Assembly: GCA_013215375.1 (NCBI GenBank) | Contig: JABSRB010000011.1 | Location: forward strand, 62,001 to 126,000 | Direction: 5' to 3' | Length of the DNA: 64,000 nt | DNA from: Oceanospirillaceae bacterium | GTDB taxonomy: Bacteria > Pseudomonadota > Gammaproteobacteria > Pseudomonadales > Balneatricaceae | Shown: positions 380 to 42,869 of the stretch, piece after piece | Layout of the letters: the number at the start of each line of letters is the position of its first letter | Numbering within the stretch: the stretch's first letter is position 1 | Made by a program: the position numbers and the translations under genes | Notes under the pieces: model-generated | Seen by the model: only the letters and a program-made list of their open reading frames with translations | Told to the model about the DNA's origin: nothing | Database searches by the model: none

Positions 380-2137
380 CTAATACACATCCCGCTGATA
401 ACGATGTTCAGTCACTAATTTATCCATATAGTCATTAACGCCCTCTTCATCCAAGTCACCAAACTGTCCGATAACTTCGCGAATCGCCGTATCAACATCA
501 GCTGCCATGCGCGAGGCATCGCCACAAATATAGATGCTGGCACCACGCTCTAGCCAATTGAAAAAGGTTTCGCCCTGCTGACGAATTAGGGTTTGTACAT
601 AGACTTTTTTATCCGTATCGCGGGACCAAGCCAAGCTTAAATTATTCAGCACTCCGCTGGCTTGCCACGCGCCTAACTGCTCGCGATATAAATAATCGTG
701 GGCCTGGTGTTGATCGCCGTAAAACAGCCAGTTATCTCCGGCGGCTTCGCGTACTTCACGCTCTTCTAAAAAGGCTCTAAAAGGCGCGATACCTGTACCT
801 GGGCCAATCATAATAAGCGGTGTTTCATCGTTACTAGGTAGATGAAAGTGCGCCGATTTTTGCACATAAACGCCGATATTTGAACCTAGCGCTAAGCGCT
901 CACCCAACCAAGTAGATGCCACGCCTTTGCGTTTTTTATCCAGTAAATCATAATGCACTTCACCCACCGTTAAGTGCACTTCTCCTGGGTGTGCTGCAAT
1001 ACTCGAGGCTATTGAATACAACCTTGGCTGCAGCGGCCTGAGACCATCGACAAAGGTCTGCGCATCTAGTTCGGGCTTGATTTCATTTAATACATCAAAT
1101 ACTTGATAGTTTTCAGCCCCTGCCACTATGCCCCAAGTTTCCAGCGCTTTGGCGTTGACGGTCATGATGTCTAGTTCAGTGGTCAAAAGTACTCGCAAGG
1201 TAGCGCTACCCTTTTTTTGTGCCACTAACTCACGTCCACTAAAACCACCAGCAGCGAGTATTTCACTGACCTGCTCAGGGCAATTGATCGGCCATACTCC
1301 CAACGCATCTCCCACATCGTAGTGCATGTCTTCACCACCACCAGCGAGGGATATTTCAACGTGGTTGACCACTTTGGCCGAACCATCACTACTGAGTTTT
1401 TCAGTGTGAATCAAATTGGCTATAAAAGGATGATTTTTGCTATAAACCGGCGCTGACTCCTCTTCACCACCAGTAACCGCTGTGCCAGCAGCGCCCGCCG
1501 CTGAGGAAAATGCCTCTGCTGCAAACACCGCATTTTTCCATTGCTCATAATCATCCTCAAAGGCGACATCGCACAGCAAGCATTCACTGACTGGGGTGGC
1601 ACCTAATTGACTCAGGCGCTCATGAATATCTTCGGCGCATTTATTGAAAAATTGATAGCTGGAATCTCCGAGACCGCAGACACTAAAATTAAGGGATGCC
1701 GGTAATGAGGGTGCGTCTTCTGCGAGAATGCTGTGATAGAATTTTTTAGCATTGTCTGGCGGTTCGCCCTCGCCAAAGGTAGAGCAAATAATTAATACAT
1801 GTTGTCGTTGCGCCATGTCAGCAACTGTAGTGTTGTCCAACTCTTCAATGACGGCATCAAAGCCTTGTGTCGCTGCGTATTTTTTTAAATTTTTCGCTAG
1901 TACTTCACAGTTGCCCGATTGTGAACCGTACAGTATGGCCAACGCGGTCCCTGGAACATCTGCTGCTGATCCTGCATTAACGGCGGCGGCAATGGTACTA
2001 ATGCCGGTCAACAGGCCATTTAACCACTGGCGTTGCTCTGCATCAAAGGGGGCATTTTCGGGCATTTCAATCACAGTGTTATTGTTTGCTTGCTCTTCAA
2101 TTGCACTAGAGAGTGTCGTTAAGATAGAGTTGGTCAT
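380..2137 (-). CDS. CysJ-like NADPH diflavin reductase (sulfite reductase flavoprotein alpha type)
   Basis: 585 residues, close to E. coli CysJ (599). Domains in order: an N-terminal region of about 65 residues; flavodoxin-like FMN domain (LYGSQSGN near 70, then FGEGEPPDNA); FAD domain (RLYSIASS, then GVASTWL); NADPH domain (GPGTGIAPFRAFLEER, YICGDASRMA); and the C-terminal RYQRDVY typical of CysJ. It passes electrons NADPH-FAD-FMN to a partner. It starts 4 bp after the stop of the siroheme reductase gene upstream, so the two form one operon and probably one enzyme. Whether the pair reduces sulfite or nitrite depends on that partner, which looks more NirA-like than CysI-like. A paralogue with the same C-terminus lies at 40956-42869. 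Confidence 0.93.
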   Translation of the reverse strand: MTNSILTTLSSAIEEQANNNTVIEMPENAPFDAEQRQWLNGLLTGISTIAAAVNAGSAADVPGTALAILYGSQSGNCEVLAKNLKKYAATQGFDAVIEELDNTTVADMAQRQHVLIICSTFGEGEPPDNAKKFYHSILAEDAPSLPASLNFSVCGLGDSSYQFFNKCAEDIHERLSQLGATPVSECLLCDVAFEDDYEQWKNAVFAAEAFSSAAGAAGTAVTGGEEESAPVYSKNHPFIANLIHTEKLSSDGSAKVVNHVEISLAGGGEDMHYDVGDALGVWPINCPEQVSEILAAGGFSGRELVAQKKGSATLRVLLTTELDIMTVNAKALETWGIVAGAENYQVFDVLNEIKPELDAQTFVDGLRPLQPRLYSIASSIAAHPGEVHLTVGEVHYDLLDKKRKGVASTWLGERLALGSNIGVYVQKSAHFHLPSNDETPLIMIGPGTGIAPFRAFLEEREVREAAGDNWLFYGDQHQAHDYLYREQLGAWQASGVLNNLSLAWSRDTDKKVYVQTLIRQQGETFFNWLERGASIYICGDASRMAADVDTAIREVIGQFGDLDEEGVNDYMDKLVTEHRYQRDVY

Positions 2138-2141
2138 TGGG

Positions 2142-3914
2142 CTACCCGGCTAAAAGAATGGTTTGTAATTGGCCTTCATCGTGTCTCTTGGTGAAGGCTA
2201 GAAAAGTTTCATCGCTCTGGCGTGTCTTGAGATAATTGCCAATAATAGTTTCAGATAATGTGCAAACATCACGCGCGGCAATGGGGCCACACAATGGGCG
2301 CGCCAGCGCTTGATCGGCATCGGTGCCACCGCCGACAAAGAAGTTATAACCCTCGCTACCATCCTCTGCGGTGGTACCAATCAAGCCTATGTCGCCGATA
2401 TAATGTTGTGCACAGGAGTTTGAGCAACCGGTGAGATGAATATTAATTGGCTGATCCAGCTCAAAGCGCGCCTCTAAATGATCAATAAGGGCCTCACCAT
2501 CTTGTTTGGTATAGGCATTAGCCAGCTTGCAACCCCAGCGACCGGTGCAGGCAATGGCGCCTGCTGAAAATGCCGTGGCATCCACACTCAACCCCAGCGC
2601 CTCTATCTCTGTTAGTGCCGCTGCTACATTTGCATCGCTAATACCGGGAATTAATAAATTCTGCCAGACAGTCAAACGTATATCGTTGCAGCCATATTTT
2701 TGTGCGATAGCGCCAAGGCCGCGCATATGCGCTGGGCTCAAAAAACCTAACTTTAAGGCCACACCGATGTAATTCAATCCCTGCTGCGCTTGTGGGTGCA
2801 CGCCCACATGTCCCTGGCGATTAATTTTTGCCCGCGGTGCATCAAAGCGCTGCTGCAGCGGTATCAATTTAACCCCGTGTCCAAATTGGTCTAGCTCGTC
2901 TTGAATACGGGCGCAAACCCAAGCAAAACCGTGCTCATCCAATACATACTTAAAACGAGATTTTTTGCGATTGGTGCGATCACCGTATTTTAAAAACACC
3001 CGTAAAATCGCCTCCGATATCTCAGGAGTATCTTCAGGCTTGCAAATAATACCAGTGTCGCGGGCAAAATCTTCGTGCCCAGTAATGCCCCCCAGTAATA
3101 ATCGGCAGTAGATACCTGGCTCAACAGCCGCGTCATTGGCTAATACTGTCACTGCGACAAAACCCACATCATTGGTATCAGAGACACAGGAGATGGAGCC
3201 GGCATTATCAAAACAGAAATTGAACTTACGTGGCAATCCATGTAAATCGCGGGTATTTAAAATACGGTGACTAAGATCCAGACCATAGCGGTGTAAATCG
3301 GTTACTTCTAAGGGATCAAAACCCGCGGTTGGTGAGGCGGTGATGTTACGCGCACTGTCCGCGCCAGTGCCTTTACAAGAGAGACCTATGTCATAGAGCC
3401 CGGCAAACAAATCCATCACTCTATCGGGCATGATTTCTCTAAATTGCAGATTGCCCCTGGTTGTCACATGCGCATACCCACCGGCAACATCTTCCGCCAT
3501 ATTGCCTAAACCGATTAACTGGTCACCGCGAAGTTTACAGGAGGGAATTCGCAGTCGACACATGTAACCTTCACTATTGGGCTCTACATTAAAGATGCCG
3601 TAGTGGCGAAACATAAACTGGGTAATGCCCTCGGCAATTTTATTAGCGCTATTGTGCTCAACTATTTGCTCCCAGATATCTAATACATGGGTTTCGTATT
3701 TAGCTTTTTCTTCCTTGCAGAGATCTTCTATCTCTGTGCCCCAAAAAGTTTCAGGCCCTGCGGGTTCAGCAGATCCTTGCTTATCCCCCAAGAGCAGATG
3801 CAGATTAAGTTTAGTCAGCATGTCTGCCAAGTACTGTTTTTGTTCAGCACTAAAGCCGTTATTTTTAGAACTAGCAATGACAATAGGCTCTGCCGGTTGC
3901 GATACTGATGACAA
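2142..3914 (-). CDS. Siroheme/4Fe-4S nitrite or sulfite reductase, NirA/CysI family
   Basis: About 590 residues from a TTG at 3914 preceded by AGGGG at good spacing. A GTG at 4049 would add 45 residues without similarity to the family, so the TTG is preferred. Ligands of the coupled siroheme-4Fe-4S centre are Cys456-x5-Cys462 (CTGRWGC) and Cys497-x3-Cys501 (GCSNSC). Duplicated ferredoxin-like and siroheme halves are present (GDRTNRKKSRFKY; LTVWQNLLIPGI; INIHLTG; YIGDIGLIG). These motifs, and the C-terminal FLAFTKRH, resemble assimilatory ferredoxin-nitrite reductase (NirA) more than E. coli CysI. The next gene, however, is a CysJ-like NADPH reductase, the usual CysI partner. Six-electron reduction is sure; the substrate is not. 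Confidence 0.88.
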   Translation of the reverse strand: MSSVSQPAEPIVIASSKNNGFSAEQKQYLADMLTKLNLHLLLGDKQGSAEPAGPETFWGTEIEDLCKEEKAKYETHVLDIWEQIVEHNSANKIAEGITQFMFRHYGIFNVEPNSEGYMCRLRIPSCKLRGDQLIGLGNMAEDVAGGYAHVTTRGNLQFREIMPDRVMDLFAGLYDIGLSCKGTGADSARNITASPTAGFDPLEVTDLHRYGLDLSHRILNTRDLHGLPRKFNFCFDNAGSISCVSDTNDVGFVAVTVLANDAAVEPGIYCRLLLGGITGHEDFARDTGIICKPEDTPEISEAILRVFLKYGDRTNRKKSRFKYVLDEHGFAWVCARIQDELDQFGHGVKLIPLQQRFDAPRAKINRQGHVGVHPQAQQGLNYIGVALKLGFLSPAHMRGLGAIAQKYGCNDIRLTVWQNLLIPGISDANVAAALTEIEALGLSVDATAFSAGAIACTGRWGCKLANAYTKQDGEALIDHLEARFELDQPINIHLTGCSNSCAQHYIGDIGLIGTTAEDGSEGYNFFVGGGTDADQALARPLCGPIAARDVCTLSETIIGNYLKTRQSDETFLAFTKRHDEGQLQTILLAG

Positions 3915-4025
3915 CGTTTTATCCCCTGAATATTTTTTAATAAAGCGATTTATTAAAATCGAAAAATGACAATTATTAGCTCTTATGCAAAAAGCTTGCC
4001 GGATTGCCAAATGACACAAAAATAG

Positions 4026-4044
4026 GAGAATGATTATCACCCCG
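4026..4044. promoter_or_regulatory. Partial Fur-like box upstream of the siroheme reductase operon
   Basis: On the minus strand GATAATCATTCTC matches 12 of the last 13 positions of the E. coli Fur consensus; the first six bases match poorly (13/19 overall by eye). It lies about 110 bp upstream of the TTG start at 3914. Siroheme/Fe-S enzymes are iron-costly, so Fur control is plausible but not shown. Confidence 0.35.
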
Positions 4045-4165
4045 TTCACTAGCTGTGCATTAAACGACCTAGTTTGGTGCCCTTTTATAGCGAAAGCCTT
4101 TTTTTAGCGCATAATGAAAAATTCCGTAGCGAGATCAGCTCTCTCGCAACGACAGATGACCAAGC

Positions 4166-35437: not shown

Positions 35438-38400
35438 ATGGCTAAGATGAGAAGTTTATATGATAAAACGTTGGAATATTCTAGTTGCGGTGTCGGCTTT
35501 ATAACCCACAAACTCAGAGTTCAAACCCATGAACTTTTAAATCTGTCCCATCAAGCACTGTGCAAAATACCGCATCGCGGTGGCATGAACGCCCAAGGTA
35601 TTGGCGATGGCGCTGGCGTTAACATTGACTTATCGGTTAATTTTTATCGCCACTTAACTGGCAACAACTCCCTCGAAGAGGGCCGTTTTGGTGTAGGTAA
35701 CTTCTTTTACCCTATCGATGAAAGCGCCCATGCCCAAGCGGAGCAAATCATCAGTGATACCTTGCAGGAATATGGTTTAGAGATACTGCTTTGGCGCGAT
35801 GTAAAAGTAAATCCCGATGTTTTAAATAGTGCGAGCCAACAGGCACAGTTATCTATACGCCAAGTAGTGTTCAGCTGCCCAGCTGCACTGACTAATCAAT
35901 CAGACTTTGAAGCGCTTATCAATGAAGCGATACTCGATATAGAAGAACCCGCTTTTCAAGCTGAGAATTTACAAGGTTTTTATCCACTGTCGATTAGCTC
36001 GTACACACAAGTGTATAAAGGTCGCCTAAACAGTTGGGAGGTGATGCCCTACTTCCAAGATTTACAACATCCACAACATTGCATTAAAACCTTATTCTTT
36101 CACACCCGCTTCTCTACTAACACTGCACCTAACCCCATTTTTGCCCAACCTTTTAGGCGCATGGCGCACAACGGTGAGCTCAACACTGATAAAAAGAATC
36201 GCCTCAGTGAAAATGCGATTTCCAAATTTCAGATCAAAATTGTCATTTTCCCCAAGGGTCAGTCTGACTCGGCGCGTTTAGACCAAACTCTAGCGAGACG
36301 TATTACAGAAGACAAGATGGACATCGTTGAAGCGATATTGGCAATGATGCCGCCCGCTTGGGAAAACGACGCCACACTCAGTGATGAAGTACGCGCAATG
36401 CTGGAGTACTACAGCCTCAGCGAAGAGAAAAACGACGGCCCCGCTGCCATTATCTTCAGTGATGGCATAAAAATAGGCGCGCGTTTAGATCGCCTCGGCC
36501 TGCGACCACTACGCACCGTTGAGACCCAAGAGTACTTCGCGGTGATGAGCGAGGCGGGGCAAATCGACTTCCCCGCTGACACTATTGTACGTCGCGGTCG
36601 CGTTGAGGCTGGCGGCATGGTGGTGTTTGACCACGCCCGTGGTGAAATACAGTACACCGAGTCGATATTAGCGTCCCTGGCGGCAAAGGAAGACTACCCA
36701 TTACTGCTGGAAAAAACCCGACTGCATTTATCCAGTTTACCCGCGCTGACGCTACAAGATGTGCAAATTCGCTCTGAATTGTCTATCGCTGCACGCATGG
36801 TCGCCTACAGTTTGAATCAGGAGAGTTTTAAATTCATGCTCGATCCTATGCTGCAATCGGGCATGGAGAAAATCTCGGCCATGGGCTACGGCATCGCTCC
36901 CAACGCCCTCAATATCGATGAAGGAGGCATGTCGCGCTATTTTAGCCAGCGCTTTGCTCAGATTACCAACCCGCCGCTCGACAGCATTCGCGAAGCGGAC
37001 GGTATGACATTGCGCGTGGCACTGGGCCCTAAACCCAATTTTTATCAGGGATCAACGACTGACAAACCTCATCAGTTAGTGTTGCGCTCGCCTATTTTAC
37101 AACCGCCACAGCTACAGCAGATATTTAAGCAGCGACAATTGAAAGTAGAGAGCGTAGAGGCACTGTTCACCCCTGACCTAGTTCATGACACAGCCAATCA
37201 AAAAAACTTGCTAGAGGCGATAGAGCGCGTTTGTAGCCACGTGGAAGCATTAGCGCGTTCGCGCTGGGAAATCATTGTACTAACCGATCGTAATATCAGT
37301 GCACAGCGCGCTGCTATTCCAGCAATTATGATAATGGCCGCAGTCAATCAGCGTCTGATTAAACAGGGGCTGAGTTTTAATTGCAGTGTGATCTTTGAAA
37401 CAGGTCAGGCTGTGAGTACCCATGATATTGCCTGCCTGTTAGGTTTTGGCGCAGCAGCAGTTTGTCCGCTGAGCGTTTATTACCGCGCCCTGGAACTGGC
37501 CAGTGATGATACTGCGGCGCAACTTTCTTTGGATAACTTTCAAAAAGCGGTAGAAAAAGCGCTGATGAAAACCATGGGCAAGTTTGGCCTGTGTACCGCA
37601 GAGAGCTACATCGGCGGTGAGTTTTTTGAAGCGAACTTTATCGACACTAAAGAGCCGCAGTTGGCAAAATTTTTCCCCAACATCGATTCGCCCATTGGCG
37701 GCATCCGCTTTGCCGATCTCGCCAAGAGCGCCAGTCACTGGCACCGTAAAATATCCAGCATTCAAGGCAGCAATGAGATCCCGGTGCTGGGTTTGTTTAA
37801 AGAGCGCAGCGATGGGCCCGGCCACACCTTTGGCAATACCTCAGTGCGCGAATACCTGAACATGACGCAAGAGCAGATTCTATATACCGATGATCAGGAG
37901 ATATTAGAACAGCGCCAAATTTTACCCATCGACGATAGTTATCGCGATTTAGGTTTTGAGAAACTCAGTGCACAGCAAATTGACCGCGCGACTATCACCA
38001 GTGCCTACCGCTCGTTTTGTGAAAATTTATATGCCGAGCGCGATAAACGTCCCGCCTCCCTGAGAGATGTATTACAGCTGGCGATCAATATGGACAGCGC
38101 CCAGAGTATCGAGGATTTCAGTCAGTGTCTGGCAACCTTCAACCTAGAGGGTAATGCTAGCTATGCGGTGCAAGGGCTTAATGTTGCACATATTGAAGCG
38201 AGCCAGTGGTTAGTCACTCTCTCTAAACCTACCCCTGCGCGCTATATCGCACTGACTGCCGCCATCAAAGCGCATTTTCCAAACAGCACACTCGATACTT
38301 TAACCGTCAACAACTTAGACATCGCCGCCAACGGCCTAACCATCGTACTCAATCGTGCCGCTCATGTATTTTTTACTAAAATACACAGCGCACCAGCAGC

Positions 38401-40903
38401 TATAACACTGGATCAAGTGCAACCGGCCTCCGAAATAACCACACTGCTGGCATCGGGCGCCATGAGTCACGGTGCATTAGTCGCTAAAGCACACGAGAGC
38501 GTTGCCCATGGCACTAACATCGTCGGCGCGATGAGCAACTGTGGCGAGGGCGGTGAAAACTCCAGTCGTTACAACAGTATTAAAGGCAGCAAGATCAAAC
38601 AGTTTGCCTCGGGCAGATTTGGCATTTGGACCGGCTACTTGGCAGATCCTTGTCTGGAAGAAATCGAAATAAAAATTGCCCAGGGCGCCAAGCCCGGTGA
38701 AGGCGGCCAATTACCCGCCGCTAAAGTCGATGTGGAAATTGCCGCAGCGCGCTGTGCCACACCGGGTGTGGAACTTATTTCACCACCGCCACACCACGAT
38801 ACTTATTCTATCGAAGATTTAGGGCAGCTCATTCACGATGCTAAGGCAGCTAGAGTGCGAGTCATCGTAAAACTGGTTTCTTCCGAGGGCATTGGTACTA
38901 TTGCCGTCGGTGTCGCCAAGGCGGGTGCAGATGTGATCAATGTTGCCGGTAATAACGGTGGCACTGGGGCTGCACAAGTGACTAGTTTAAAAAACACCGG
39001 CCGCTCTGCCGATGTCGGTATTGTAGAAGTGCACCAGGCACTGAGCGAAAACGGCCTGCGCGATAAGGTTATACTGCGCTGTTCCAACTCCCATCAGACC
39101 GGCTTAGACGTGGTTAAATCAGCACTAATGGGCGGCGATTCGTTTGAGTTTGGCACCACCGCACTGATGATGCTCAAATGTGTGATGGCCAAAAACTGTA
39201 ATGTTAAATGCCCAGCGGGCCTGACTACTAACGCGGAAATGTATCAGGGAGATGCCCGCGCGCTCGCCCAGTACTTCATCAATTTGGCTCACGAAGTAAG
39301 AGAGATACTGGCCGCCATTGGCTACCCGTCGCTGCGTGCGATTAGAGGGAAAAGCCAGTTAATGAGCCTGATCAGCCACAGCGCCATCGTCGGGCGCTTA
39401 GATATGACCGGCATGCTGCGTGAAGTCGAGACCATCAGCTACTCGCATCCGGTATATTTAGAGGCCGATTTCAGCGCAGATGATCAGTACCTGATAGCTT
39501 TTAAACGCGACTTTATTAACACCAATGACAACACTATTGATATAAAAGGCCCGGCTCTCAACAATTGCCACAAAACCACCACCGGACAATTCTCCATCGA
39601 TGTCGAGCGTATGCTCAACTACCAGCTTAGCGAGCAGCAAAAGATTGATCATCCTGCCATTATGCAATTACAAAATGGCCGCTGGGTACTGGCCGCTAAC
39701 AGCGTCACCATTCACACCAATAATTCTGCTGGCCAGAGTTTTGCCGCTTTTAACAACAGCGGTATCAATTTAATTCACACTGGTACTTGTAACGATGGCG
39801 TAGCAAAATCGGCCAGTGGTGGGGTGATTGTGATTAAAAACCCTAACCTTGAAAGTGACTCATTAACTGAAAACGTATTGATCGGTAACTTTGCCTTATT
39901 CGGCGCCACCGGCGGTCAAGTATATATCCAAGGCCAAGCCGGTGACCGCTTCGGCGTAAGAAACTCAGGAGCTGTTGCGGTAGTCGAAGGCGTGGGCGAT
40001 TTTTGCTGCGAGTATATGACCCACGGTGCCGTCGTCAATTTAGGTACGTACGGCAAAGGCTTTGGCAATGGCATGAGCGGTGGCAATGCTTACCAATACG
40101 ATCCTAGCGGCGAGCTAAGCAAGCGCTGCAGCCAAGACAGCGTCATCGCGATTCCCCTCACCCAAGACAACCCATTAATTACCGGGCAAGAGCTGGCGCT
40201 ATTGCAACACTTAGAACAGCACGCGGCACACAGCGGCTCCCACTTAGCTAAAAAACTCTTAGATGAATGGTCAACTCAGCGCCAGCACTTTTATGTGGTA
40301 CTACCGCGACCACTGATTAAACATCAGTGCTCAACATCAATACTCAGTGATAACAACAGCTCGGTAATGCTTGAAGAATTGGCGATTTACACCGCCAATA
40401 GACAACTGGATATTTTAATCGCCGCCTATGCAAAATGGCACAGCGATCAACAGGGCATCTTTAATGACCGTGTGCCAGATTATGGCGATTGCGATAGCCC
40501 GCTTATCTGCAACTACATCACCACTACAGGTGTGCTACGCCGCGCTTTAGAGCTGGCGCAAAAGAATAATCAACACAACCTAGATGCCATCGCTAAAGCC
40601 TTGATCATGCATAAAGATCGCAAGTTAATAGACTGGTTAGTGAAGGATGTCAAAGTGGTATTGGCTGATTACTCAGAGCAAGCACTGGCCAGTTTACTAG
40701 CAGACAAACGGGTCACAGATTACAAGCAATCGCTAAACTTACGGGAAGTTTGGGATATTCAAGCACTGGGCACCACCGCTTGGATCATCGAACGCGATCG
40801 CCAAAACCAGCGCGAACTCGCCCAATACCCCGCTTTAGCCACCCAGTTAGCGAAACATTATATGCAGCATTTAGCGGATGTTATGCGCAGTTGCGCCGCA
40901 TAA
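35438..40903 (+). CDS. gltB: Glutamate synthase large subunit (GltB-like), 1821 residues, coupled to a diflavin reductase
   Basis: Class II glutaminase domain with nucleophile Cys17 after a short propeptide (LEYSSCGVGF), then RFSTNTAPNPIFAQPFR and HNGELNT. A central domain follows. The FMN/glutamate synthase domain spans about 980-1370 (MSHGALVAKAHES; NCGEGGE; GEGGQLPAAKV; PPPHHDTYSIEDL; GNNGGTGAAQ). The 3Fe-4S ligands are Cys1248-x5-Cys1254-x3-Cys1258, one residue shorter than the usual x5-x4. The GXGXG domain ends near 1560 (GAVAVVEGVGDFCCEYMTHG). The final 165 residues or so have no GltB counterpart. Usual GltB is about 1500. ATG 35447 is an alternative start. It makes two glutamates from glutamine plus 2-oxoglutarate. 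No GltD follows; a CysJ-like reductase does. Confidence 0.93.
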   Translation: MAKMRSLYDKTLEYSSCGVGFITHKLRVQTHELLNLSHQALCKIPHRGGMNAQGIGDGAGVNIDLSVNFYRHLTGNNSLEEGRFGVGNFFYPIDESAHAQAEQIISDTLQEYGLEILLWRDVKVNPDVLNSASQQAQLSIRQVVFSCPAALTNQSDFEALINEAILDIEEPAFQAENLQGFYPLSISSYTQVYKGRLNSWEVMPYFQDLQHPQHCIKTLFFHTRFSTNTAPNPIFAQPFRRMAHNGELNTDKKNRLSENAISKFQIKIVIFPKGQSDSARLDQTLARRITEDKMDIVEAILAMMPPAWENDATLSDEVRAMLEYYSLSEEKNDGPAAIIFSDGIKIGARLDRLGLRPLRTVETQEYFAVMSEAGQIDFPADTIVRRGRVEAGGMVVFDHARGEIQYTESILASLAAKEDYPLLLEKTRLHLSSLPALTLQDVQIRSELSIAARMVAYSLNQESFKFMLDPMLQSGMEKISAMGYGIAPNALNIDEGGMSRYFSQRFAQITNPPLDSIREADGMTLRVALGPKPNFYQGSTTDKPHQLVLRSPILQPPQLQQIFKQRQLKVESVEALFTPDLVHDTANQKNLLEAIERVCSHVEALARSRWEIIVLTDRNISAQRAAIPAIMIMAAVNQRLIKQGLSFNCSVIFETGQAVSTHDIACLLGFGAAAVCPLSVYYRALELASDDTAAQLSLDNFQKAVEKALMKTMGKFGLCTAESYIGGEFFEANFIDTKEPQLAKFFPNIDSPIGGIRFADLAKSASHWHRKISSIQGSNEIPVLGLFKERSDGPGHTFGNTSVREYLNMTQEQILYTDDQEILEQRQILPIDDSYRDLGFEKLSAQQIDRATITSAYRSFCENLYAERDKRPASLRDVLQLAINMDSAQSIEDFSQCLATFNLEGNASYAVQGLNVAHIEASQWLVTLSKPTPARYIALTAAIKAHFPNSTLDTLTVNNLDIAANGLTIVLNRAAHVFFTKIHSAPAAITLDQVQPASEITTLLASGAMSHGALVAKAHESVAHGTNIVGAMSNCGEGGENSSRYNSIKGSKIKQFASGRFGIWTGYLADPCLEEIEIKIAQGAKPGEGGQLPAAKVDVEIAAARCATPGVELISPPPHHDTYSIEDLGQLIHDAKAARVRVIVKLVSSEGIGTIAVGVAKAGADVINVAGNNGGTGAAQVTSLKNTGRSADVGIVEVHQALSENGLRDKVILRCSNSHQTGLDVVKSALMGGDSFEFGTTALMMLKCVMAKNCNVKCPAGLTTNAEMYQGDARALAQYFINLAHEVREILAAIGYPSLRAIRGKSQLMSLISHSAIVGRLDMTGMLREVETISYSHPVYLEADFSADDQYLIAFKRDFINTNDNTIDIKGPALNNCHKTTTGQFSIDVERMLNYQLSEQQKIDHPAIMQLQNGRWVLAANSVTIHTNNSAGQSFAAFNNSGINLIHTGTCNDGVAKSASGGVIVIKNPNLESDSLTENVLIGNFALFGATGGQVYIQGQAGDRFGVRNSGAVAVVEGVGDFCCEYMTHGAVVNLGTYGKGFGNGMSGGNAYQYDPSGELSKRCSQDSVIAIPLTQDNPLITGQELALLQHLEQHAAHSGSHLAKKLLDEWSTQRQHFYVVLPRPLIKHQCSTSILSDNNSSVMLEELAIYTANRQLDILIAAYAKWHSDQQGIFNDRVPDYGDCDSPLICNYITTTGVLRRALELAQKNNQHNLDAIAKALIMHKDRKLIDWLVKDVKVVLADYSEQALASLLADKRVTDYKQSLNLREVWDIQALGTTAWIIERDRQNQRELAQYPALATQLAKHYMQHLADVMRSCAA

Positions 40904-40955
40904 ATCACCACCAGCGCCTGCCCTATTAGACACAGAAGTATTGGAGTTATGCCAA

Positions 40956-42869
40956 ATGAGTCATGCAGAAAAGGAAGTACCTCAAAGCCAGCGATTAAGC
41001 CAAGTCACTAATCAGGCTAGCCATCCATTAACTAGTCAATCAACGGGTCGATCAACAGACCAAGCACCAGCGCAAGCAAACATACTGGCACCGAGCCAGA
41101 TTCCCTTTATCCCCCAGGATCTGCCGTTTAATAATCTGCAGCGACAGTGGTTAGGCGGCTTTTTAGCAGGTTTGCATAGCCGCTTGTTAGTGGTAGAAGG
41201 TAACGCAGGCCAAAGCGCCGCAGCCCCTATAAACCACCGCCCTATCACCATTATTTACGGCAGCCAAACGGGTAATGCCGAAGCGGTGGCAGAACAGGCG
41301 GCCACTGCTGCCAAAGCACAAGGATTAACCCCCACTGTATTAGATATGGACGATGTCGATTTGGCGCTACTGAGCAGCATCGAGCGTTTATTAATAGTAA
41401 CCAGCACCTATGGTGAGGGAGAAATGCCTGATAACGCGCAAGCGCTATGGGATGCGATCAGTGATGATCTAACCCCGAGACTAGAGCAACTGCACTACAG
41501 CGTTTTAGCGCTCGGAGATACTAGCTACGATGAATTTTGCCTCGCCGGTAAACTCTGGGATGAGCGCTTAGCGCAGCTTGGCGCCCAGCGCATTAATAAA
41601 CGCATCGATTGTGATATTGACTATGAAGCGCCAGCGCAAAGCTGGATAGATGACACACTACCAAATATCGCCAGTAAAGGCGCTGACGCCACAAACGCTA
41701 ACAGCGCAGCGAACACTGGCGAAGCACCGAAAAAAGCGAAATCAACATACAACCGTAACAACCCACTACAAGCGACGTTAACCTGTAAAACGGTACTGAC
41801 GCAACCCGCCTCCAGCAAAGAAGTAATGCATTTTGAATTCTCTTTAGGCGATTCTGGTGAAACTTATCAGGCCGGTGATGCACTTAATATCATCGCGCTG
41901 AATCGCCCAGAGTTAGTCTCCCAGATACTGCAATTTTTTGCTGTGGATGGCGCTAAAACAGCCACTAGTTCTGAACTTAGCTACACTCAACTACTCAGCC
42001 AGCAACTGGAAATACGCAACCCCAGCAAAGAGTTAGTAGCAGCGCTCGCCACTCTTAGTGACGATAAACAACTCAATGACTTACTGTGGCAAGACGACAA
42101 AGCGCCCCTCGTTAATTTCCTCTGGGGTAAAGATTGCCTAGACCTGCTAACCACTTATGCGGATGACAAAAAACAGCAATTCAACATCGAAGACTTTATC
42201 GGCCTGTGCAAACCTCTAGCACCAAGGGCTTATTCAATATCTTCGTGCATCGAAAAACACCCGGGGGAAGTGCATTTAACCATTGGCAGTGTGCGTTATA
42301 ACCATCAACAGCGCGAACACTTTGGCGTCTGCTCCACCTACCTCGCGGATATCGCCGAAGTCGGCGAGAGCATCGCCTGCTACTTCTCACCCAATAAAAA
42401 CTTTGCTATTCCAACTGATGGCTCACTACCTATCATCATGGTGGGCCCAGGCACCGGTATCGCACCCTTTAGAGCCTTCCTCGAAGCGCGCGAAACTTCT
42501 GCAGCCAGCGGTGCTAACTGGCTGTTCTTTGGCGATCGCAACAGCGGCACTGATTTTTTGTATCGCGAAGAATTGCAGGCAATGCAACAAAGCGGCCTGC
42601 TCACCCAGCTAGACCTAGCTTTCTCCCGTGATCAAAGTAAAAAAATCTATGTGCAAGATAAGATGCGCGAACAAGGCGCACAGTTATTTAAGTATTTAGA
42701 GCAAGGCGCCTACTTCTACATCTGTGGCGATGCGCTACGCATGGCAAAGGATGTCGAAAAAGCCCTGCATGATGTAGTGGCCAAGCACGGCCAGATGAGT
42801 GCCGAGCAAGCGGTTGATTACATCAATAAATTGAAGAAGAACAAACGTTATGTGAGAGATGTTTATTAG
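40956..42869 (+). CDS. CysJ-like NADPH diflavin reductase next to the glutamate synthase
   Basis: 637 residues from ATG 40956 with TTGGAG in front; an in-frame frame from 40878 overlaps gltB and is unlikely. The N-terminal 90 residues are a Gln/Ser-rich linker. The flavodoxin domain follows (IYGSQTGNAEA near 92), then the FAD domain (RAYSISS, GVCSTYL), the NADPH domain (MVGPGTGIAPFRAFLEAR, YICGDALRMA) and RYVRDVY at the end, as in CysJ. It begins 52 bp after the gltB stop on the same strand. In ordinary NADPH-GOGAT, GltD supplies electrons; in Fd-GOGAT, ferredoxin does. Here this diflavin protein is the obvious donor. It is a paralogue of the reductase at 380-2137. Confidence 0.92.
   Translation: MSHAEKEVPQSQRLSQVTNQASHPLTSQSTGRSTDQAPAQANILAPSQIPFIPQDLPFNNLQRQWLGGFLAGLHSRLLVVEGNAGQSAAAPINHRPITIIYGSQTGNAEAVAEQAATAAKAQGLTPTVLDMDDVDLALLSSIERLLIVTSTYGEGEMPDNAQALWDAISDDLTPRLEQLHYSVLALGDTSYDEFCLAGKLWDERLAQLGAQRINKRIDCDIDYEAPAQSWIDDTLPNIASKGADATNANSAANTGEAPKKAKSTYNRNNPLQATLTCKTVLTQPASSKEVMHFEFSLGDSGETYQAGDALNIIALNRPELVSQILQFFAVDGAKTATSSELSYTQLLSQQLEIRNPSKELVAALATLSDDKQLNDLLWQDDKAPLVNFLWGKDCLDLLTTYADDKKQQFNIEDFIGLCKPLAPRAYSISSCIEKHPGEVHLTIGSVRYNHQQREHFGVCSTYLADIAEVGESIACYFSPNKNFAIPTDGSLPIIMVGPGTGIAPFRAFLEARETSAASGANWLFFGDRNSGTDFLYREELQAMQQSGLLTQLDLAFSRDQSKKIYVQDKMREQGAQLFKYLEQGAYFYICGDALRMAKDVEKALHDVVAKHGQMSAEQAVDYINKLKKNKRYVRDVY

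Follow-up and report, generated by a model that had tools for sequence, protein, structure and literature searches.

The gene pair and its host genome

We describe here two adjacent genes from an Oceanospirillaceae bacterium that look like a glutamate synthase (GOGAT) with another reductase in place of the usual electron-supplying partner. They lie on the forward strand of a stretch of 64,000 nucleotides (contig JABSRB010000011.1 of assembly GCA_013215375.1, positions 62,001 to 126,000), hereafter the window. The first gene, gltB_L (35438..40903, +), encodes a long (L-type) glutamate synthase large subunit of 1821 residues, assigned by sequence identity and by Pfam matches to GATase_2, Glu_syn_central, Glu_synthase and GXGXG, the four domains of the GltB large subunit. 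The second gene (40956..42869, +) encodes a CysJ-like diflavin reductase of 637 residues from the ATG at 40956, with Pfam matches to Flavodoxin_1, FAD_binding_1 and NAD_binding_1. Counted from that ATG the gap between the genes is 52 bases, although this start is one option, given that the mechanically called open reading frame (ORF) spans 40878-42869 (+) and overlaps gltB_L by 26 bases. An earlier note, made from the sequence alone, had reported a GltB-like protein of 1821 residues followed after 52 bp on the same strand by a CysJ-type diflavin protein, and the ORFs together with Pfam and NCBIfam confirm this arrangement. Neither protein reaches the cut-off of its NCBIfam model: GltB_L scores 1044.3 bits against NF008730 (GltB), slightly below the cut-off of 1047, and the diflavin protein scores 606 bits against its best model, TIGR01931 (CysJ), below the equivalog cut-off of 668. 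By sequence, the closest solved structures are glutamate synthases for GltB_L and CysJ, the sulfite reductase flavoprotein, for its neighbor.

The host genome consists of 4,999,463 bases in 96 contigs, with the window on C3. An ordinary gltB (C18:1823-6190) with gltD (C18:6378-7760) right behind it is present on another contig, so that the window contributes a second, extra system. A GltD search of this genome found places on C18, C46 and C73 only, and thus none near the pair. The earlier note was therefore right that no GltD gene is nearby, whereas the genome as a whole does contain one, contrary to the hint in that note. GltB_L is 35% identical to the ordinary GltB of its own genome.

Conserved residues, linkage and descent

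GltB_L begins with a glutaminase (class II amidotransferase) domain (residues 17-420; 35486..36697, +), in which C17 aligns with Cys1 of mature GltB, and continues with a central domain (residues 453-732; 36794..37633, +), a flavin mononucleotide (FMN) or synthase domain (residues 981-1296; 38378..39325, +) and a GXGXG beta-helix domain (residues 1414-1576; 39677..40165, +), all placed by Pfam and the FMN domain also by alignment. Residue conservation was counted over 69 aligned long GltBs, namely GltB_L of the window and 68 others. The glutaminase-site residues C17, R224, N245, G246 and D277 are kept in all 69, as are E1037, K1085, Q1091 and R1105 of the FMN site and the three cysteines C1248, C1254 and C1258 (39179..39211, +), which are the expected 3Fe-4S ligands. 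All of these residues are likewise identical in five plasmid rows and in the host's own ordinary GltB. In the alignment with Synechocystis ferredoxin-dependent GOGAT (Fd-GOGAT), the cysteines correspond to C1137, C1143 and C1148, and the four FMN-site residues to E903, K972, Q978 and R992, which we take to be its 2-oxoglutarate site. The spacing of the cysteines differs, being C-x5-C-x3-C in 69 of 69 long GltBs and C-x5-C-x4-C in seven ordinary ones. A loop of the pattern MG(Y/F)G begins at M482 (M482-G497; 36881..36928, +), a residue that aligns with Met479 of the Azospirillum enzyme; according to a review (PMC8097209), Met479 may regulate how electrons pass from the 3Fe-4S cluster to FMN.

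Compared with ordinary GltB, the alignment of GltB_L contains two inserts totalling about 150 residues and a C-terminal domain of about 190 residues. The first insert covers residues ~803-848 (37844..37981, +) and the second residues ~881-980 (38078..38377, +), at the junction of the central and FMN domains; a Pfam search of both gave no match. The C-terminal extension (residues 1630-1821; 40325..40900, +) is a candidate docking domain. An AlphaFold2 model of residues 1560-1821 (predicted local distance difference test, pLDDT, 91.4; predicted template-modeling score, pTM, 0.85) is all-alpha past the GltB tail. Against the PDB this domain had no match at E <= 0.001, and the glutamate synthase row 6s6s covers 63 columns only. 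For residues 430-1629 the model is of low quality (pLDDT 67, pTM 0.48) and recovers the GOGAT fold, nothing further. At the position of the ferredoxin-binding loop, which we take to be about residues 914-938 in the FMN domain of Synechocystis Fd-GOGAT, GltB_L has no insert, and its alignment to 1llw breaks there.

The long GltB has relatives of 51-77% identity in Gammaproteobacteria, Alphaproteobacteria and Tsukamurella, with Marinomonas sargassi at 77% and the five aligned plasmid relatives at 51-54%. A plasmid collection contains nine records of it, which align over 98-100% of the length with 50-53% identity and come from Sinorhizobium, Neorhizobium, Shinella (two), Ketogulonicigenium (four) and Tsukamurella; the records listed after them fall to ~33-36%, the level of ordinary GltB. 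One further plasmid, from Rhizobium anhuiense, carries a gltB of ordinary size followed by glnA instead of gltD. We scanned one genome of each species with a query region peculiar to the family; of the 545 stretches obtained, 486 are relatives, and the best 80 of these were kept. They are mostly from methanotrophs, and also from Marinomonas, Oceanobacter, Alteromonas, Psychromonas, Marinifaba, Vibrio and Thaumasiovibrio. Among 274 genomes drawn from the class of the window, the C-terminal extension occurs in three, the host's own included, and the system is thus rare and patchy there. In a tree of 24 rows, 15 long GltBs occupy one side of a long branch (support 100/100) and nine ordinary GltBs from Pseudomonadota, Bacillus, Tsukamurella and Bacteroides the other. 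As judged by these sequences, the long GltBs form a class of their own.

The linkage of the two genes is conserved; its absence in relatives would, by the earlier note, have refuted the proposed pairing. Twelve of the 80 fetched loci were unusable for linkage, the gene being cut or having less than 1500 bases behind gltB_L. Among the 68 testable loci, 65 have a CysJ-like gene downstream on the same strand within 1.6 kb, and in 61 it lies within 200 bases; in the plasmid collection, a CysJ-like match lies just behind the long GltB in nine of nine records, which come from two phyla. In four loci (L078, L074, L080 and L099) additional ORFs separate gltB_L and cysJ, one of them in L078 encoding an Mrr-type restriction endonuclease domain (PF04471). 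Five Vibrio loci (L028, L029, L034, L055 and L060) carry gltB, gltD, gltB_L and cysJ in this order on one strand. Such an order agrees with a function of the pair in making glutamate, and it prompts one to ask why the two systems are retained together. At the Vibrio mexicanus locus, gltB_L is in three pieces in different frames and looks broken or misassembled, and the adjoining ordinary gltB is split too.

Other shared neighbors chiefly reflect local synteny. A large gene upstream of gltB_L in 11 loci (L041, L044, L049 and L084 among them) belongs to a conserved housekeeping neighborhood, and its member in L084 is GlnD (PII uridylyltransferase) by Pfam. Another neighbor cluster spans 34 loci, and its L084 member is FAD monooxygenase-like (FAD, flavin adenine dinucleotide). 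We discounted these shared neighbors as functional evidence, since they are mainly a matter of local synteny.

The diflavin reductase is made up of a flavodoxin (FMN) domain (41250..41624, +), an FAD-binding domain (41754..42341, +) and an NAD(P)-binding domain (42438..42758, +), all from Pfam; the last contains the stretch SRDQ..K.YVQ, shared with E. coli CysJ, which we take to be the NADPH-site stretch of CysJ. A tree of 28 rows was built from 14 of the 65 CysJ-linked genome loci, five plasmid rows, the two diflavin proteins of the window and seven others. All 20 GltB-linked CysJs fall on one side of a branch (support 100/99). The other side holds the CysI-linked Novosphingobium protein, the CysJs of E. 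coli and Proteus, two NirA-linked rows, a row fused to nitrate reductase, and unannotated rows from Burkholderia and Streptomyces. The E. coli and Proteus records with cysJ (L104 and L106) are labeled as plasmids; at 4.9 and 4.1 Mb they appear to be chromosomes filed under that label. Within the host genome, the relatives of the diflavin protein are a second diflavin reductase in the window (380-2137, 40% identity), a short flavodoxin on C40, and an 891-residue frame on C7 that matches in two pieces at 32-34% identity. The earlier note had supposed that the reductase at 380-2137 serves another enzyme, and it does adjoin a siroheme-type protein of the NirA family at 2142-4049. The same NirA-CysJ pair is found in Sulfitobacter pontiacus (L105), with its CysJ in a branch apart from the GltB-linked ones. 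Elsewhere in the window, a few kilobases past the pair, lie a gene for a dimethylsulfoniopropionate (DMSP) lyase domain protein (PF16867; 45556-46218, -) and an adjoining acetyltransferase gene.

Replacement of GltBD in methanotrophs

Thirty genomes chosen from the 80 fetched loci were searched for ordinary GltB and GltD. Both are lacking in 15 of them, which are 14 methanotrophs or methane-oxidizing symbionts and one gammaproteobacterial metagenome-assembled genome. The remaining 15 have an ordinary GltB and a full-length GltD, the latter scoring above the GltD cut-off in ten and below it in five; these five score 336-360 bits and each lies beside an ordinary GltB. Some methanotrophs have both systems (Methylomonas lenta, Methylicorpusculum and the genome of L043). 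In Tsukamurella, the ordinary gltB and a beta subunit are on another replicon than gltB_L.

We further searched 81 genomes from the order of Methylomonas sp. LW13 (Methylococcales, NCBI taxonomy). Nineteen contain the long GltB, and an ordinary GltB was found in none of these among matches listed down to about E 1e-26. Among the 62 genomes without it, ordinary GltB gives a strong match in 58 (the best E value being at most 3.6e-89, with a few matches truncated at contig ends), a fragment in three and only a weak match in one. This contrast of 0/19 with 61/62 gives a Fisher probability of 1.3e-17, without correction for kinship. Nineteen genomes picked from the 58 with a strong match served as controls for the following tests. 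GltD scores above the cut-off in 0/19 long-GltB genomes and in 19/19 controls; one long-GltB genome (G345) has a partial match of 152 bits in a 563-residue frame, and like matches occur in 16 of the 19 controls besides GltD. A CysJ of the GltB-linked type (52-57% identity) adjoins gltB_L in all 19, being cut by a contig end in G334, and is found in none of the controls, 13 of which have another CysJ relative of 40-43% identity. The adjacency of a gltB-like and a cysJ-like gene in genomes without a GltD above the cut-off, a combination for which the earlier note had suggested a search, is present throughout the 19. In 17 of them the linked CysJ is the sole match at E <= 1e-30; the exceptions are G311, with a second CysJ beside CysI, and G334, with a piece on another contig. 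CysI itself had no match in 29 of 31 genomes with only the long GltB; it is present in two, one of which is among the 19, leaving 18 of the 19 without it.

We also asked which glutamate dehydrogenases these genomes contain. The ELFV type (PF00208), searched in 19 of the 31 genomes with only the long GltB, is present in none of them, as against 8 of 19 controls, and the large NAD-dependent enzyme occurs in 18 of the 31, a number that includes 11 of the 19. Hence 8 of the 19 have neither glutamate dehydrogenase. In these eight, which include Methylomonas sp. LW13 with its complete genome, the pair is the sole glutamate-forming enzyme of the four kinds searched. We show here, as far as gene content goes, that the GltB_L-CysJ pair has replaced GltBD in many methanotrophs, and it appears to be their only glutamate synthase.

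Proposed electron supply and comparison with known systems

Taken together, these findings make it very probable that gltB_L and the CysJ-like gene code for both components of one NADPH-dependent glutamate synthase, which has no need of GltD. In the proposed mechanism, the FAD of the diflavin protein would accept a hydride from NADPH; the electrons would then reach the FMN in the flavodoxin domain of the same protein and move singly from there to the 3Fe-4S cluster and on to the FMN of GltB_L. The N-terminal cysteine site of GltB_L would free ammonia from glutamine; led to 2-oxoglutarate at the FMN site, the ammonia would form an imine that is reduced to glutamate. We infer from the sequences that the two proteins form a complex, that electrons take this path, and that 2-oxoglutarate and NADPH are used in the cell. 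The surface on which the diflavin protein docks is probably made up of the inserts peculiar to the family together with the all-alpha C-terminal domain. In the host genome, the pair would act as a second GOGAT beside GltBD. The diflavin-fed GOGAT proposed in the earlier note is thus supported by gene content and conserved residues, with the electron transfer itself as its conjectural part.

Several observations weigh against this proposal. Ordinary GltBD is kept beside GltB_L in the window genome, in Tsukamurella and in 15 of the 30 genomes, which leaves the redundancy there unexplained. The 19 replacement genomes are related and may thus go back to only a few separate replacements. Glutamate may also be reached there by another route, such as alanine dehydrogenase, which lies outside the four kinds searched and which Methylococcus capsulatus uses at high ammonium (PMC10623323). 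Three loci (L093, L094 and L095) have no CysJ-like gene in the 6-7 kb behind gltB_L. Finally, the loop after M482 has MG(Y/F)G where ordinary GltB has MGDD or MGND. The host's own ordinary GltB carries MGDD. A search of the locus ORFs for the MGDD/MGND pattern found no ordinary GltB, those of Vibrio and L043 going unmatched, so that the loop contrast is drawn from the host's own ordinary GltB and the PDB rows.

The altered loop, the very long branch between GltB_L and ordinary GltB, and the presence of both systems in half of the 30 genomes and in the host would also be expected if the pair were a GOGAT-like amidotransferase-reductase that shares the electron chain but acts on another 2-oxo acid or imine, its product not being glutamate. 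We consider this improbable, given that the four residues aligned with the presumed 2-oxoglutarate site are invariant in all 69 proteins, that long and ordinary GltB co-occur in none of the 81 genomes of the LW13 order, that eight of the 19 lack both kinds of glutamate dehydrogenase searched, and that gltB_L adjoins gltBD in five Vibrio loci.

Other readings keep GltB_L as a GOGAT and change its electron donor. CysJ-type proteins are known partners of CysI, one of them adjoins NirA in the window, and three gltB_L genes have no linked CysJ, so that GltB_L might be fed by ferredoxin or a free flavodoxin while its neighbor serves a siroheme sulfite or nitrite reductase or similar. This is very unlikely in view of the adjacency in 65 of 68 loci and the separate branch of the linked CysJs, which are moreover the sole match in 17 of 19 genomes. 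We rejected a ferredoxin-type GOGAT because the ferredoxin loop is absent from GltB_L, and a CysI partner because CysI, the one siroheme reductase searched there, is missing in 29 of 31 genomes. It is even harder to credit that GltB_L pairs with a GltD encoded elsewhere, its CysJ neighbor being incidental. The host does have a GltD on C18, and a gltD elsewhere that pairs with this GltB would, by the earlier note, refute its proposal. However, the C18 gene lies directly behind its own ordinary GltB, and the 19 long-GltB genomes have no GltD above the cut-off and a CysJ-like gene in every case. This candidate was rejected as well, given that GltD has a GltB neighbor of its own and that GltD-free genomes exist.

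We return to the NADPH-dependent synthase made of GltB_L and its diflavin partner. The GS-GOGAT (glutamine synthetase-GOGAT) cycle is a central entry of nitrogen into cells, and, if the proposal is correct, a diflavin-fed form would add another electron route to glutamate synthase and indicate that a reductase of the CysJ type can be recruited to a 3Fe-4S/FMN enzyme. For nitrogen models of methanotrophs, it would mean that a missing gltD together with a gene labeled "sulfite reductase alpha subunit" need not imply a missing GOGAT. On balance we favor, with some reserve, the view that this is an additional structural class of glutamate synthase, in which a GltB far removed from the ordinary kind, with an all-alpha C-terminal docking domain and a reshaped 3Fe-4S loop, is served by a dedicated diflavin reductase without a 4Fe-4S relay. 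Such a synthase would be self-sufficient for glutamate synthesis and the sole GOGAT of many environmental methanotrophs. In its passages on glutamate synthase, the review names GltD-dependent, fused NADH and ferredoxin-dependent forms (PMC8097209), and passages of papers on methanotrophs name GOGAT as gltB plus gltD or give no genes (PMC10623323, PMC6570963, PMC10974252). Our literature searches found no description of the GltB_L-CysJ pairing among the matches listed.

The pair shares features with each of several known systems. With bacterial NADPH-GOGAT (GltBD) it has in common the order of glutaminase, central, FMN/3Fe-4S and beta-helix domains as well as the catalytic and cluster residues. 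In GltBD, the small subunit GltD, with two 4Fe-4S clusters, is the electron donor, whereas GltB_L has no linked GltD partner and differs from its own ordinary GltB in its low identity, its inserts and C-terminal domain, the cysteine spacing and the MG(Y/F)G loop. The Fd-GOGAT of plants and cyanobacteria has the same core domains and likewise does not need GltD, but GltB_L has no insert at the Synechocystis loop, and its partner gene encodes a two-flavin reductase rather than a ferredoxin. The diflavin protein has the flavodoxin, FAD and NADPH domains and the NADPH-site stretch of CysJ from NADPH-sulfite reductase (CysJI), the CysI-linked CysJ of G311 being 42% identical. Unlike that CysJ, it is linked to GltB_L instead of CysI, lies in a separate branch and scores below the TIGR01931 cut-off. 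The NirA-CysJ pair (380-4049 in the window, and Sulfitobacter pontiacus) offers a parallel, in that a redox enzyme again adjoins a CysJ-like reductase, although the partner there is a siroheme-type protein and its CysJ belongs to the other branch.

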